A stretch of DNA of 52,919 nucleotides from Emticicia agri (GTDB lineage: Bacteria; Bacteroidota; Bacteroidia; Cytophagales; Spirosomataceae), in contig NZ_SEWF01000040.1 in NCBI RefSeq assembly GCF_004168285.1, positions 1 to 52,919 of the forward strand, given 5' to 3'. Both the position numbers and the translations under genes were made by a program. Under the pieces are notes generated by a model. The model made no database searches, had not been told where the DNA came from, and was given only the letters and a program-made list of their open reading frames with translations. This document shows, one piece after another, positions 24,678-30,997 of the stretch; positions within the stretch are counted from its first letter, which is position 1; each line of letters begins with the position of its first letter.

Positions 24678-25178
24678 TCACTTCACAAACACTACCTTAA
24701 TAGACCGTACTTCCCGTATCCAGCGGGCTTGTTTTTTGTCTTGTGGAGCTACGAGGCGGAAAGGGCCTTCACCTGCGGCCAAGGGAGCACCATCTTTTTC
24801 TGCTACCAACAAAACAGTGTTATTACTAAATTCAGGGTCTAACTCTGGTAATGAATACACTACTTCGTAGCCATCAGCCGCCTGAACCAGTACTACTTTA
24901 GCCAGATTTTCACCTCGCAGTTTGCCGCCCAATGTTACTCCGGCTTTTTCGAGTACCTCAACCAATGCTACGCCTTTGTATTCGTGTTCTTTACCATCTT
25001 TATCTTTGGATTTATGGCTTGCAGATTTATAGTTGGCGAGGTCTGCTTTCGTGAGCGTAAGGGGTGTCAATACCTCACCGCTTATACTGATAGATGCCGC
25101 TTGCTGGGCAAGGCTCATGAAAGGAATACTTATCAAGAGCGTGACAACCAGTAAGGCAATGTTTTTATTTTTTTTCAT
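24678..25178 (-). CDS. Secreted molybdopterin-oxidoreductase-fold protein (SUOX-like domain)
   Basis: 166 residues with signal peptide MKKNKNIALLVVTLLISIPFMSLAQ. The mature part matches the sulphite-oxidase-type molybdopterin-binding fold: SISGEVLTPLTLTKADLANY, YKGVALVEVLEKAGV, AADGYEVVYSLPELD and GPFRLVAPQDKKQARWIREV. Full-length enzymes are larger and bind the molybdenum through a conserved Cys, but this protein has no Cys at all. It may bind cofactor without that ligand or serve as a scaffold. Its start overlaps the stop of the peroxidase gene by four bases. Last gene of the ModE-linked operon. Confidence 0.8.
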   Translation of the reverse strand: MKKNKNIALLVVTLLISIPFMSLAQQAASISISGEVLTPLTLTKADLANYKSASHKSKDKDGKEHEYKGVALVEVLEKAGVTLGGKLRGENLAKVVLVQAADGYEVVYSLPELDPEFSNNTVLLVAEKDGAPLAAGEGPFRLVAPQDKKQARWIREVRSIKVVFVK

Positions 25179-26305
25179 TGTTTTAAAGATTTATTGGGGT
25201 CTGAAAATGCCGGATTATTAATAAATGTCTTGTCGGTAAGCATCTGTAAAAAGGCGATTATATCTGCTTTTTCTGTCTGATTCAGCAAGAGTGTTTTCCC
25301 TCCTTTTTCGTTGGAAGTTCCTCTTAGAAAACTGCTCAAAGTAGGGCTTTCCTGAATGTGTTCGTTATAATGTTCCAATACCTCGGCCAGTGTTTTAAAA
25401 CGTCCGTCGTGCATATATGGGTCTGTGAGCGCAATATTTCTTAGCGTAGGTACTCTGAATCTGCCTTTGTCTTCTGCCTGATTGCTGACGGCCTCCCGAC
25501 CAGAGTCTTTAGGCGTGGCATCCAGTCCGTTGTTATGAAACAACTCCTTGAATGTTTTTGGTCCGCCATGACAATGGCCGCAATTGGCCCCTCTTATCCC
25601 TTTTTCCGGTGCTGGAGGTTCCATAAACAGGTTCATGCCTCTTAATTCTTGCGCAGTAGGCTGATAAGTTCCGGCCAGATAACGGTCATATGGCGAGTCG
25701 GCAGAAATAAGCGTGCGTTCAAACTGAGCCAGCGCCTTTCTGATTTTATCGGCATCAATATTGGCTGTACCAAATGCTTTTTTAAACATCGTCCCATAGA
25801 CAGGCACCTGTTGCAGTTTTCTGACAGATGCTTCCATTGATTGCCCCATTTCGTGGGGATTTGTCATCGGAAAAACAGCCTGCTCTTCCAGACCCGGCGA
25901 ACGGCCATCCCAGAAAAAATTGCGTACCCATAGCAGATTTACCAAAGCCATCGAATTACGGGCAGTGAGCGATTTATCAACCCCTACACTAAAGGCTTTG
26001 CCATCTGTAAAAGCCAGTTTCTGCTCATGGCAACTCCCACACGACAGCGTATTATCGGCCGATAGTTTCTTTTCATAAAACAACATTCTGCCCAACGCCA
26101 CCCCTTCTCTGGTAGTAGGGTTATCAGCAGGAATAGTAATTCTACCTCCAAAATTGGCCGGATAGACCAACGGGTAAGGTTCCGGCTGGTTATCGTCTGT
26201 GTTTAATCCGCTTATAACTACACTTACCACCGCTATGCTCAACAGCAACCACCGGAAGCCTTTCCGGTTTGATTGCTGGGGTGATATGTGAGTATTGTTG
26301 TTCAT
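25175..26305 (-). CDS. Di-heme cytochrome c peroxidase (MauG/CcpA-type)
   Basis: 376 residues. An N-terminal hydrophobic segment (WLLLSIAVVSVVISG) is a signal or anchor. Two c-type heme sites are present, CGSCH at 89-93 and CGHCH at 242-246, with FTDGKAFSVGVD and FFWDGRSPGLEEQA between them as in bacterial di-heme peroxidases. It reduces hydrogen peroxide or, in MauG-like members, oxidises a protein or small substrate in the periplasm. It lies between a TonB-dependent receptor (44-base gap) and a molybdopterin-fold protein (4-base overlap). Confidence 0.9.
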   Translation of the reverse strand: MNNNTHISPQQSNRKGFRWLLLSIAVVSVVISGLNTDDNQPEPYPLVYPANFGGRITIPADNPTTREGVALGRMLFYEKKLSADNTLSCGSCHEQKLAFTDGKAFSVGVDKSLTARNSMALVNLLWVRNFFWDGRSPGLEEQAVFPMTNPHEMGQSMEASVRKLQQVPVYGTMFKKAFGTANIDADKIRKALAQFERTLISADSPYDRYLAGTYQPTAQELRGMNLFMEPPAPEKGIRGANCGHCHGGPKTFKELFHNNGLDATPKDSGREAVSNQAEDKGRFRVPTLRNIALTDPYMHDGRFKTLAEVLEHYNEHIQESPTLSSFLRGTSNEKGGKTLLLNQTEKADIIAFLQMLTDKTFINNPAFSDPNKSLKQ

Positions 26306-26349
26306 TTGTCTGCTAAAACACTGTCTTAGCTACAACATTAAGCCTGTTT

Positions 26350-28320
26350 TCAATGATAACTAAACGCCAGCGTTACAAAGTAATTTCGTCCTGCTTCAGG
26401 AAAACCTTCAACGAGCGTATAATTTTTATCAAAAATATTATTTATCCCCGCTTCTGCCGAAATGAATTTATAAATTTTTACTGATGCCTTCGTATTCATT
26501 AACGTATAGGCTTTTGCCTGCGTGCCATAACTGGTACTATAACGGTCGCTATTATACTCAGCACTCAGCAACAGATTAACCCGTTTCAGGAAGGTATAAT
26601 CAGCATAGCCGAATACCTTATTTTCTGGCACATTGGTAAATAGAATAGCCGGGTTAGTGATATTTTTACGCTTGATATACGAATAATTGGCGCCCAATGC
26701 CAGCCCTTTTTCAGCTTTATAGTCGAGCCCTAACTCTGCGCCATAAAACCGGGCTTTACCTGCATTCTGCAATTGAAATCGGCCGGGTTGCACATTATCT
26801 ACCTGCTGAATAATATCATTGATACTGCTATTAAACACACTTGCCTGCAAACTTAGTTTGTCGGCTATTTTTCCGGTATAGCTCAGGTCAAAATTAACAG
26901 CTACCTCGGCATGCAATGACGGATTCGGAATAGCCTGACCCATACGGTACGAATAGCGGTCTTTGATGGTAGCAAAACGGGTCTTTCTGGCAATAGACGC
27001 CTTGATAGAATGGCCGGTGCGAATATCATAGAAGATACCCAGTTGCGCATTGACTGCATTGTTCTTACTATCGGCAAAATTAGTGAGTTCTTTGGTAGTG
27101 GCATTATATTCCTGCGCCTGTTCGCTACCACGGGTATTAAAACTTGCGCCGGGAATTAAGGCCAAGGCAGGCGTAACCTGATAAATGTTTTCGATACCTA
27201 CCGATAGTGTGTTATCAATATAAGACTGTACAGGCTCACCCAAGTCATTTTCACGGTGTATATCTCTTTTATATTGAATATTAGCCCTGAAAACATTGTT
27301 TTTTAGTGCTTTCGATTCAAACTCGGCATTGCCTCCTACGGTATAGTCGTTATAAAAACTCTGAAAAGCATACGGTCTTGTTTGCTTGGTATAGGTGGTA
27401 TCATCGTAGCTGAAAAGCTGATTCACAAAAGTATCATAATAAAGTCTCGACTTGATTTTGTTATGCTCGCCCAAAGCTGTATTCGAGATAAAGTACAGGC
27501 TTTGCTTGTTCCATTCAGGCCATTTCCAGAATCTGGTCATGATTTTGGAATCATCGCCCACATAAGGCGGTGTGCCTTTTTCTCCCTGCTGATTCACATA
27601 GCCAATTACATACTCATCGGTGGCATTGGGCGTAAAACCCACTTTGGCTGTCAGTTTACGGTCGTCTCTATACGCATTTTTCCGATTATCTGTCTGCTGA
27701 AATCTTCTTTTTTTAAAATCAGCCGACAAAGGGAAAGTTTTTTGTTTCAATTGCGATGCCCCTGCCTGAAAATAAAACTTACCCAACCTTGACCCTATAT
27801 TGATATTGCCACGGAAACCCTCACCACTGAAAACTCCTACCCTGCCATTGACTTCAAATTTCTCTACGGGTTTTCTTGACACCAGATTAATGGCACCTCC
27901 CATCGTATTAGCACCATACAGTATAGAAGCAAAACCTTTGGAAACATTAATTTCGGCGAGGTCGAAAGTCGTAAATCGGCCCATATCTACATAGCCATCG
28001 TAAGGCACATACACGGGTACACCATCAATAAATACCGGAACCTGACGCAGGTCGAACCCACGCACATATACCACCGATTCGTTTCTTGGGCCAACATTGG
28101 CAATATTTACCCCCGGTAAAAGATTCAGGGCGTTTGATAAGTCCAGCCTATTAAATTTCTCTATGCGTTGGTAAGATATACGCTGTTGGGTATCTCTCAG
28201 CGAATCTGCCAATATTCTGATTTCTCCTAACTGAAACAATCGGTCGGGGGTTTCTGAGGGTTCGTTCTGCGCAAAAATCTGTGTTGATACAAGGCTGAAA
28301 ATCAGTAGAAGCTTTTTCAT
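26350..28320 (-). CDS. TonB-dependent outer-membrane receptor, predicted ModE-controlled
   Basis: 656 residues with signal peptide MKKLLLIFSLVSTQIFAQ. Plug domain at about 30-150 (LSNALNLLPGVNIANVG, VYVRGFDLRQVPVFIDGVPV, NVSKGFASILYGANTMGGAI), then a 22-strand-type barrel ending in NYFVTLAFSYH. It lacks a carboxypeptidase-like domain, so it resembles metal-chelate or cobalamin receptors more than glycan SusC proteins. A ModE-type operator overlaps its promoter, which suggests a molybdenum-related ligand such as molybdate-chelator complex (inference). Confidence 0.9.
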   Translation of the reverse strand: MKKLLLIFSLVSTQIFAQNEPSETPDRLFQLGEIRILADSLRDTQQRISYQRIEKFNRLDLSNALNLLPGVNIANVGPRNESVVYVRGFDLRQVPVFIDGVPVYVPYDGYVDMGRFTTFDLAEINVSKGFASILYGANTMGGAINLVSRKPVEKFEVNGRVGVFSGEGFRGNINIGSRLGKFYFQAGASQLKQKTFPLSADFKKRRFQQTDNRKNAYRDDRKLTAKVGFTPNATDEYVIGYVNQQGEKGTPPYVGDDSKIMTRFWKWPEWNKQSLYFISNTALGEHNKIKSRLYYDTFVNQLFSYDDTTYTKQTRPYAFQSFYNDYTVGGNAEFESKALKNNVFRANIQYKRDIHRENDLGEPVQSYIDNTLSVGIENIYQVTPALALIPGASFNTRGSEQAQEYNATTKELTNFADSKNNAVNAQLGIFYDIRTGHSIKASIARKTRFATIKDRYSYRMGQAIPNPSLHAEVAVNFDLSYTGKIADKLSLQASVFNSSINDIIQQVDNVQPGRFQLQNAGKARFYGAELGLDYKAEKGLALGANYSYIKRKNITNPAILFTNVPENKVFGYADYTFLKRVNLLLSAEYNSDRYSTSYGTQAKAYTLMNTKASVKIYKFISAEAGINNIFDKNYTLVEGFPEAGRNYFVTLAFSYH

Positions 28321-28323
28321 GAA

Positions 28324-28377
28324 ATCGATATATATTTAAAAATATATCGCAAATATAGGAGAAAAACCTTTGCACAA
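28324..28377 (-). promoter_or_regulatory. modE box: Promoter with ModE-type operator
   Basis: ATCGATATATA (28324-28334), a 6-bp spacer, then AATATATCG (28341-28349). The left arm fits the published ModE half-site ATCGNTATATA fully and the right arm fits TATATANCG at all but one position. On the minus strand TATATTTG (28357-28350) is a perfect -7 element, with TTG (28377-28375) 17 bp upstream. The operator would cover the transcription start, so repression is expected. It lies 4 bp before the receptor start codon. Confidence 0.75.
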
Positions 28378-28397
28378 GATTCAAAACAAAAATATTG

Positions 28398-28742
28398 TTA
28401 AATCAGGTTGAGTAGTTCCTGCTCTGCCTCGGCTACAGCCTTTAGTTTCTGCCCCAATTTTTTATAGGCCTCTATCACTTGCAGTCCGGCTTCGGTAATT
28501 TCTGCACCGCCCCCATGCTGACCGCCTTTATGGGTAATCACATAAGGATTTTTGCCCAGAGTATTCAGGGAAACCACCATATCCCAGGCTTTTTTGTACG
28601 ACATTCCCATCTGCTGCGCCGCTTTTACAATAGAACCCGTTTCCTGAATATGTTCCAATAATTGCACCCTGCCGGGCCCGAAAAACTTGGTATCATCTAT
28701 AAAAACCCAATGACTCAGGCTTATTCTTACATTTCTTTCCAT
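28398..28742 (-). CDS. ModE N-terminal-domain winged-helix regulator
   Basis: 114 residues. This is the LysR-like winged helix of ModE: FGPGRVQLLEHIQETGSIVKAAQQMGMSYKKAWDMV, then the wing with KGGQHGGGAEITEAG and a dimerisation helix (YKKLGQKLKAVAEAEQELL). The C-terminal molybdate-binding (MOP/TOBE) domains of the 262-residue E. coli ModE are absent, as in many single-domain relatives. It heads the operon, 77 bases before the receptor. How it would sense molybdate without MOP domains is open. Confidence 0.88.
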   Translation of the reverse strand: MERNVRISLSHWVFIDDTKFFGPGRVQLLEHIQETGSIVKAAQQMGMSYKKAWDMVVSLNTLGKNPYVITHKGGQHGGGAEITEAGLQVIEAYKKLGQKLKAVAEAEQELLNLI

Positions 28743-29026: not shown

Positions 29027-29890
29027 ATGAAGAAAATCCTTAAAATCGTGCTTTGGTCGGTATTGGTACTCGTTGTAGTACTTGGTGGACTCATCGGCGT
29101 ATTTATCTACAAGGTTAAGTATGGTTTCCCGGTTTCGTATGAGACTGAAGCTCCTAAGATTGACTTTCCGGCTGATAAACCTGCCATTTTGCTTTTCTCA
29201 AAAACCACCGGATTCCGTCATGGCGAATCTATCGAAGCCTCCAAACCAGTCATTACTGAACTGGCAAAGAAAAACAACTGGTTTGTGTATGAAACCGAAG
29301 AAGGCGGCGTTTTCAACGAAGCACAATTAGCTAAATTCAGTACTGTGATTTTCAATAACTCAACAGGAGAGGTCATTAACGATGAGCAAAAACGTGTACT
29401 CGAAAAATATGTGGAAAATGGCGGTAGTCTGATGGGTATTCACGGAGCCGGAGACGACTCGCATCATTGGGACTGGTACGAAAACAATCTTTTAGGTGCA
29501 AAATTTTCTCACCACCCAATCAGTCCGCAATTCCAGAAAACCGATGTATTACTCGACACACAGGCCGATAGTTCCCTTACGGCAGGTATTCCAAAGGTAT
29601 GGAGTCATTCCGACGAATGGTATGTATTTTTCAAAAATCCCCGTGAAAAAGGCTTTAATATCCAGTTTACCATCAACGGCGAAACCATTAATCCAAGTGG
29701 CAATATCCTGTTTGTAACAGACAAAAATTATGGCATGGGTAAAGACCACCCCGTAGCCTGGTGCAAGCCCATAGGCAAAGGAAAAACTTTCTATACCTCT
29801 ATCGGGCATAACGAAGAAGCCTGGAAAAATGAGCATTTTATAAGGCTGATTGAAAACGCTCTTAAATGGACGCAGGCAGGAAAAAAATAA
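29027..29890 (+). CDS. ThuA-domain protein (glutamine-amidotransferase-like fold)
   Basis: 287 residues. An N-terminal membrane anchor (LKIVLWSVLVLVVVLGGLIG) is followed by a ThuA domain: ILLFSKTTGFRHGESIEASK, FSTVIFNNSTGEVINDEQK, GGSLMGIHGAGD, HHPISPQF, and the C-terminal GKGKTFYTSIGHNEEAW. ThuA-like proteins are linked to trehalose and other sugar catabolism but their chemistry is poorly known. TACATTTG (28979-28986) matches the -7 consensus. No sugar-utilisation genes are adjacent. Confidence 0.88.
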   Translation: MKKILKIVLWSVLVLVVVLGGLIGVFIYKVKYGFPVSYETEAPKIDFPADKPAILLFSKTTGFRHGESIEASKPVITELAKKNNWFVYETEEGGVFNEAQLAKFSTVIFNNSTGEVINDEQKRVLEKYVENGGSLMGIHGAGDDSHHWDWYENNLLGAKFSHHPISPQFQKTDVLLDTQADSSLTAGIPKVWSHSDEWYVFFKNPREKGFNIQFTINGETINPSGNILFVTDKNYGMGKDHPVAWCKPIGKGKTFYTSIGHNEEAWKNEHFIRLIENALKWTQAGKK

Positions 29891-30036: not shown

Positions 30037-30501
30037 TTATTTCATCTTTCGGAATATCTCCTGCATGGCTTCGGGATTAATAGTGTTCATCTCAACTAAC
30101 CTGAGCGATTTTACCATTTTCAGGGTAGTAGTTTTGTAATGTTGAAAATGAGGTGTCTGTAAATGCGCCTGATAGGCCGCTTTACTGGCATATATTTCCA
30201 GAAGTCTTATCCGGGTGGGGTTTTCTTTCTCATACATCGGGAAAATACAGATAACCCCCGCCTCAATTTTTACAGACGCCTCCGATTCAACTTTCAGTAT
30301 CGCTTTATATTCATCTAAATATTCGGGCAGAATTTCAATCTCTGCTATGCGTACCATCATCGTTGTATCCCTGTTCGGGGTTATTAAACCCGGCTGTTTT
30401 TCGGCAGTTAAAGGCTGCTTCAGGTGCTGTGCTTTGAGGATACTCATGCTCATTGCCACAACCAGAAGCATTGCCCAGAACCTGATGCTGTTTTTATTCA
30501 T
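30037..30501 (-). CDS. Secreted antibiotic-biosynthesis-monooxygenase-like (ABM) protein
   Basis: 154 residues with signal peptide ending near SILKAQ. The ABM/quinol monooxygenase dimeric ferredoxin-like fold is recognisable from VRIAEIEILPEYLDEYKAIL, EAGVICIFPMYEKENPTRI, LLEIYASKAAYQAHLQTPHF and the helix after it. Homologues such as YgiN act on quinols in the cytoplasm; a signal peptide is less common and puts this one in the periplasm. It starts 1 base after the cupin stop, so they are co-transcribed. Confidence 0.85.
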   Translation of the reverse strand: MNKNSIRFWAMLLVVAMSMSILKAQHLKQPLTAEKQPGLITPNRDTTMMVRIAEIEILPEYLDEYKAILKVESEASVKIEAGVICIFPMYEKENPTRIRLLEIYASKAAYQAHLQTPHFQHYKTTTLKMVKSLRLVEMNTINPEAMQEIFRKMK

Positions 30502-30502
30502 C

Positions 30503-30997
30503 TTAAGGTTTATTATTTTTATTTACTTCACCATATTCTTCTGCTGAAACCGGTTGTAACCATACCACATTTACATCGTCTTTAAAATGGGTGATAGCAA
30601 TATGTATCATGCCTATCTCGGCGGCAGCCCCATGCCAATGCTCGGTATTTTCGGGTATATTCACCACATCACCTTTTTTTATGATTCGGGCAGGTTTACC
30701 TTTTTCCTGATAAAAGCCTTGCCCTTCTGTAACAATCAACACCTGTCCTTTCGGGTGAGTATGCCAGTTTGTTCTGGCACCGGGCTCAAAAGTTACACTA
30801 CCTATTACAAAGTCGTTATTCTTATCTCTCGCTAAAAGTGGTTTCAGAAAAGCATCTCCGGTAAAATACCCGTTGGTCAGCTTATCACCTTTCGGAAAAA
30901 TCGTGTTTGTTTCCATTGTTGTTTGTGCGTTTAGACTATACAAGCTAAAAAAGCCTGAAATTGTTAGTAGAATTGCCTGCAAGCTAAGTGATTTCAT
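30503..30997 (-). CDS. Secreted cupin-domain protein
   Basis: 164 residues with signal peptide ending near SLNAQ. Cupin motif 1 is GARTNWHTHPKGQVLIVTEG and motif 2 is PENTEHWHGA. The protein is a close relative of the cupin lipoprotein at 12976-13458, with shared FEPGAR, NWHTHP and WLQPV segments. Probably a metal-binding periplasmic protein related to the small cupin (R)-mandelonitrile-lyase-like group. Middle gene of an operon of cyclophilin-like, cupin and ABM proteins controlled by AraC operator copy 3. Confidence 0.85.
   Translation of the reverse strand: MKSLSLQAILLTISGFFSLYSLNAQTTMETNTIFPKGDKLTNGYFTGDAFLKPLLARDKNNDFVIGSVTFEPGARTNWHTHPKGQVLIVTEGQGFYQEKGKPARIIKKGDVVNIPENTEHWHGAAAEIGMIHIAITHFKDDVNVVWLQPVSAEEYGEVNKNNKP

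Follow-up and report, generated by a model that had tools for sequence, protein, structure and literature searches.

What does a ModE-type regulator control in a genome in which no ModA can be found? We examined a 52,919-nucleotide stretch of Emticicia agri DNA (hereafter the window; contig NZ_SEWF01000040.1 of assembly GCF_004168285.1), which forms contig C40 in a genome of 6.65 Mb and 99.93% completeness. Within it lies an operon of four open reading frames (ORFs), all on the minus strand, that encode a ModE-type regulator, a TonB-dependent receptor, an exported di-heme enzyme and a small secreted protein with the sulfite oxidase (SUOX) fold. We propose, at a probability of roughly 60%, that this operon supplies the outer-membrane and periplasmic components of a ModE regulon that serves to acquire molybdenum (or tungsten), in which a TauE/SafE permease replaces ModABC.

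An initial annotation of this DNA had described four co-oriented genes with short gaps or overlaps, and this arrangement is confirmed at its coordinates. The gene for the regulator (28398..28742; 114 amino acids [aa]) is separated from that of the receptor (26350..28320; 656 aa) by 77 bp that contain a putative ModE operator; 44 bp then lead to the gene for the di-heme enzyme (25175..26305; 376 aa), which overlaps the SUOX-fold gene (24678..25178; 166 aa) by 4 bp. The regulator consists of a helix-turn-helix (HTH) domain only. Its match to ModE_repress (TIGR00637, E 1.5e-25) scores 89.1 bits, below the curated cut-off of 98.5 bits, and it is therefore no curated member of that family; judging from its clear sequence relation to the ModE chains 2ijl, 1b9m and 1o7l of the PDB, it is ModE-like. 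The molybdate-binding C-terminal domains are missing from this protein, which stops at residue 114 and is matched by HTH-region models only. The receptor carries the Plug and TonB_dep_Rec domains, each above its Pfam cut-off, and its aligned orthologues are 47-79% identical to it.

The di-heme enzyme, initially called a MauG-type peroxidase, belongs to the MbnH/MauG/peroxidase superfamily, with CCP_MauG above the Pfam cut-off and CXXCH heme motifs at residues 89 and 242, but it is closer to MbnH than to MauG: its best PDB chain is 6e1c, and it scores 277.2 bits against TIGR04039 (MbnH), short of the 362.85-bit cut-off of that model. The assignment of its neighbor to the SUOX or molybdopterin fold is upheld by PF00174 (Oxidored_molyb; 37.2 bits, cut-off 24) and by a structure model with a predicted local distance difference test score (pLDDT) of 91.8, whose best structural matches are sulfite oxidases and PruR. 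However, a check of the sequence found no cysteine in this protein, and the last 140 aa are likewise free of cysteine in 77 of 80 homologues. Because it has no cysteine, the protein cannot hold the molybdenum cofactor (Moco) in the usual way.

The operator, CGATATATATTTAAAAATATATCG, occupies positions 28326..28349, 5 bp upstream of the receptor start codon. It is a 24-bp palindrome in which 22 of 24 letters match their own reverse complement. By direct reading, positions 28324-28351 agree with the E. coli ModE consensus, given in PMC545781 as ATCGNTATATA-N6-TATATANCGAT, at 17 of the 20 specified letters, which bears out the near-consensus ModE operator claimed at 28324-28349. Searches were made with the pattern CGNTATAT-N8-ATATANCG, and the reversed pattern served as a control. 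The window operator is the sole exact match in the entire genome, where 0.022 exact matches would be expected under a first-order Markov model with the composition of the window. With two mismatches allowed, the same genome yields 25 matches versus 34 for the reversed control; matches with at least two mismatches were accordingly dropped as single-genome evidence, and weight was given there only to exact sites or to one-mismatch sites upstream of genes. One such site, at C7:171417, lies 10 bp upstream of the gene for a TauE/SafE (TSUP) permease (G000:C7:170666-171406, outside the window; PF01925 108.8 bits, cut-off 32.6). A one-mismatch site at C10:117122 falls inside an ORF and was set aside.

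A promoter had also been placed under the operator, but the candidate element, TATATTTG (28350..28357, minus strand), instead abuts it. This sequence would be a Bacteroidota -7 promoter element. A set of 78 distinct sites upstream of labelled genes, each with no more than one mismatch, was scanned for TAnnTTTG. The motif has offset -8, as in the window, in 15 cases, offset +3 in 22 cases and offset +5 in seven, the inner positions being partly favored by the operator's own letters; the reversed motif gives four scattered matches.

Operators of this type recur far beyond E. agri. We scored 58 related genomes for ModE, the TauE clade, ModA, MOT1, MoaA and operator matches; since ancestry is shared within all of our genome samples, significance and exact-test values are descriptive only. 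Among the matches listed, which omit one of at most one mismatch in genome G054, there are 22 exact operators. They are distributed over 15 genomes, all with ModE, and no exact operator is among the listed matches of the 31 genomes without ModE. For all but one, the gene that follows is a receptor, TauE or SUOX/di-heme gene, with the operator upstream of it or slightly inside its called start. The remaining exact operator (G002:C28:344586-344609) is situated where two convergent genes end, and its surroundings contain neither a receptor nor a TauE or SUOX gene.

A separate sample centered on the SUOX-fold protein comprised 80 loci, the best 80 of 118 confirmed, of which 68 have long flanks. 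Sites with zero, one and two mismatches number 14, 32 and 14 in these loci, versus 0, 2 and 27 for the reversed pattern. Upstream of the first gene, an operator is present with no more than one mismatch in 42 loci and with two mismatches in 11, and there is none in 27; this count misses three loci (L127, L150 and L157) with a one-mismatch site upstream of a truncated or mis-called receptor, and was left uncorrected. Operators also occur away from ModE, as with the exact site upstream of receptor and SUOX genes in G028 and the one-mismatch site upstream of SUOX and di-heme genes in G030. Conservation upstream of orthologous receptors, which the initial annotation had put forward as a check, is thus found, as it is before SUOX and TauE genes, and it supports the predicted ModE-type regulation.

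Several loci depart from this pattern. Emticicia sp. CRIBPO and one Dyadobacter koreensis locus have only a receptor fragment (L114:7594-7860 and L127:8483-8950) and retain the operator, and in G001 (L035) the operator is retained with no receptor beside ModE. Six Chitinophaga loci with the receptor do not carry the usual operator pattern. At the place of the operator, four of them (L145, L149, L153 and L177) have a variant 24-bp palindrome, CGTTATTC-N8-GAATAACG, and L160 has a near copy. Compared with the ATATA-type operator of other genera, the variant is alike in its outer letters and length, whereas its inner letters differ.

The gene neighborhood is conserved as well, with considerable variation in its membership. 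ModE is found within 5 kb in 42 of the 80 SUOX loci, a di-heme gene in 38, a receptor of the window type in 32, a receptor of another family in six and TauE in two. All four genes are present in 20 loci, and 14 keep the gene order of the window, so that the synteny looked for outside E. agri is indeed present. These loci are not independent, as 12 of the 14 are from Dyadobacter; the other two are from Chryseolinea and from a metagenome-assembled genome (MAG) labelled Thalassovita. We also compiled 26 loci around ModE from the remainder of the 58-genome sample and recognized the ModE ORF in 25; contig ends shorten two of the 26. There, TauE is near in 12, a SUOX-fold gene in nine, a different receptor family of ~850 aa in nine, DUF2490 in six and a di-heme gene in one. 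A link to the operator exists for every structural gene, yet the genes combine in a modular way, and receptors of two families, ~25% alike, have been recruited.

The distribution of importers bears on the proposal that TauE stands in for ModABC. The absence of a ModABC transporter from the window, noted initially, extends to the whole genome as far as ModA is concerned, which is matched by neither PF13531 nor TIGR01256 at E 0.001. The same genome encodes MoaA and two full-length PF00174 proteins in addition to the window gene. Across the 58 genomes, the TauE clade is present in 30 and ModA, above its cut-off, in 12, with no overlap; MOT1 is present in three. Together the three importers account for 42 of 44 genomes with MoaA. 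Moreover, each of the 27 genomes with ModE has exactly one of them (TauE in 21, ModA in five, MOT1 in one). A TauE gene of G005 that is split in two pieces at contig ends was scored as present, and a ModA match in G018 was not counted at 31.7 bits, below the cut-off. PF16983 alone proved misleading as a marker of MOT1, giving weak matches of ~30 bits in most of the 58 genomes, and MOT1 was counted only where two strong repeats are present (G038, G046 and G057). These three genomes make Moco and have neither ModA nor TauE; in G046 the two-repeat MOT1-type protein is encoded ~5 kb from moaA.

A second set of 198 genomes across the phylum was scored for TauE, MoaA and ModA. All 36 TauE genomes in it have MoaA, one has ModA, and in 22 of them tauE and moaA are at most 10 kb apart. 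In G157, an exact operator lies 8 bp upstream of an operon with the order moeA-modE-four-helix-tauE-mobA-moeB-moaE-four-helix-moaC/B-moaA (names are those of the best NCBIfam matches, several below cut-off). Genomes G200 and G149 each have, among Moco genes, a tauE adjoined by the gene for a SUOX-like secreted protein. By our own reading, an operator of no more than one mismatch precedes tauE or its operon in ~12 of the 21 genomes that have both ModE and TauE. The molybdenum theme of the initial annotation is supported both by the operator before the Moco operon of G157 and by the mutual exclusion of TauE, ModA and MOT1. Membership in PF01925 places the permease among the TSUP transporters, one of which imports sulfate (PMC11535334), a precedent for oxyanion import by a TSUP protein; the TauE clade studied here tracks MoaA and excludes ModA, and a role in molybdate transport is predicted for it from genomes.

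From the computed gene calls, operators and their conservation, the missing ModA match and the exclusion pattern, we infer a course of events that includes derepression, ligands, direction of transport and roles for both secreted proteins. When molybdenum is scarce, ModE would leave the operator adjoining the promoter, and the receptor, di-heme enzyme and SUOX-fold protein would be made. The receptor may then bring molybdenum, as a scarce or chelated species, through the outer membrane; in the periplasm the SUOX-fold protein could bind this species or its pterin portion, and the di-heme enzyme might oxidize the carrier or mature the binding protein. Finally, the TauE/SafE permease, under its own ModE operator, would import molybdate to the cytoplasm in place of ModABC. 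The initial annotation had already suggested that the receptor imports molybdenum or tungsten and that both secreted proteins act on this metal or its cofactor; its reading is partly supported, and is extended here by the likeness to PruR and by the permease, on which much of the case depends.

A regulon of this composition would resemble the ModE-ModABC regulon of E. coli and Geobacter sulfurreducens, as described in PMC545781, in its ModE-type HTH domain and in a 24-bp operator of equal geometry and near-consensus letters. It differs in that the Emticicia genome has no ModA match, its ModE lacks molybdate-binding domains, and the genes targeted encode a TonB receptor, a TSUP permease and proteins that are secreted. 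The single-domain ModE of Desulfovibrio likewise has the DNA-binding domain alone, and its mode of sensing is given as unknown in the same paper; however, Desulfovibrio retains modABC and uses the operator CGGTCACG-N14-CGTGACCG. Among the papers listed in our literature searches we saw none that links ModE to molybdenum uptake through a TonB receptor, or molybdate uptake to a TSUP protein, although the most relevant older survey of ModE sites, that of Studholme and Pau (2003), may contain an earlier prediction. If correct, our proposal would explain the molybdenum supply of many Moco-making Bacteroidota that have neither ModABC nor MOT1, and would give a function to a protein clade annotated solely as sulfite exporter. 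It would also add molybdenum to the metals imported through TonB receptors, and give small cysteine-less proteins of the sulfite oxidase fold a role beyond PruR signaling.

A number of observations weigh against this proposal. It is not obvious why a receptor should be needed, given that ordinary porins let molybdate diffuse through, and the window ModE is without a molybdate-binding domain. The exact operator was not found in 12 of the 27 ModE genomes, and in six genomes with ModE and TauE (G008, G014, G015, G018, G028 and G030) no operator of at most one mismatch precedes tauE or its operon. The ModABC loci of five ModE-bearing relatives (G013, G021, G026, G031 and G034) gave an operator with at most two mismatches in none of the five examined. 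None of the 26 other ModE loci has a receptor of the window type next to ModE. TauE is present and ModE absent in nine of the 58 genomes, and two Moco-making genomes (G024 and G054) lack all of TauE, ModA and MOT1. In the phylum sample, in which MOT1 was not searched, TauE and ModA are both missing from 21 of the 114 genomes with MoaA.

The receptor could instead serve cofactor salvage, importing environmental Moco, molybdopterin or another pterin; the PruR-like protein would bind the pterin, and the di-heme enzyme would oxidize it and free molybdate for import by TauE. The SUOX-fold protein does resemble PruR, a secreted, stand-alone, cysteine-less protein of ~170 aa with the same fold (PMC13259868). 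However, the PruR review judges the PruR pocket too small for full Moco. Residues Y104 and W153 of the window protein are only presumed equivalents of PruR residues, and the tryptophan also aligns with one in an ordinary sulfite dehydrogenase. Genomes with the operon, moreover, synthesize their own Moco, as MoaA is present. Salvage, the bolder reading, seems possible but unlikely. The context of PruR is also different: in Proteobacteria it is coupled to DcpA and DTB signaling proteins, whereas the window links its relative to ModE, a TonB receptor and the di-heme enzyme, and by family assignments no DcpA or DTB signaling gene is among the window genes that flank it. We had considered Trp153 as a mark of a di-heme enzyme substrate and dropped it, as the tryptophan is present in 36 loci with a linked di-heme gene and in 40 without one.

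A fully specified Bacteroidota pathway across both membranes without ModABC is similarly doubtful. In it, the TonB receptor would take a cofactor-derived molybdenum-pterin or other chelate, the PruR-like protein would receive the pterin, the MbnH-like enzyme would free the metal oxidatively and the TSUP carrier would import molybdate. A single-domain ModE would control the whole pathway through operators of the E. coli type.

The affinity of the di-heme enzyme to MbnH raises the matter of copper, or another metal. MbnH-MbnP pairs, too, combine an exported di-heme enzyme and a small secreted protein and lie close to TonB receptors (PMC3621798), and in 38 of the 80 loci the SUOX-fold gene is linked to a di-heme gene; the enzyme could thus modify its partner for copper binding, under a re-purposed ModE-like regulator. 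Yet the enzyme stays below the TIGR04039 cut-off, its partner has the SUOX fold and no MbnP model among its NCBIfam matches, and the regulator and operator are of the ModE type. With the same operator at TauE in this genome and at the Moco operon of G157, we consider a copper system quite improbable.

About equally hard to sustain is the idea that TauE exports sulfite made around molybdoenzymes of the sulfite oxidase type, and that the operon serves periplasmic redox chemistry linked to such enzymes with no uptake at all. The annotation of TauE/SafE as a sulfite exporter and the fold of the secreted protein are in keeping with it, and ModE proteins can control molybdoenzyme genes. However, so clean an exclusion of ModA and MOT1 is not what one would expect from a product exporter, and a TonB receptor is an import device. 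Finally, a chance neighborhood of unrelated genes with an accidental palindrome, to which the variable gene order and modular set might point, is highly improbable given the 20 loci with all four genes and the operators upstream of receptor, SUOX and SUOX-di-heme genes without adjacent ModE in G015, G028, G030 and G039.

Some further loci deserve mention. The MAG labelled Thalassovita, an alphaproteobacterial name, has the complete four-gene operon with an exact operator (L138) and is probably a mis-binned Bacteroidota contig. DUF2490 is near ModE in L038, L039, L042, L047, L054 and L060, and in L054 (G031) it lies between ModE and a ModA-matching gene. In four Acidobacteriota (Terriglobia) MAGs (L187, L188, L189 and L191), a SUOX-fold homologue is followed by a gene for ~237 aa and then by one for ~493-517 aa; neither ModE nor the operator was found in these loci.

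In the window itself, no tRNA and no Rfam family at gathering score were detected. A ThuA-family gene (29027-29890) is divergent from ModE and has no operator upstream; a relative occupies the same place in G002 (L036). Farther on, at 30037-30997, with no tie to the operator, two genes for secreted proteins, one with an ABM domain and the other a cupin, overlap over nearly their whole length.
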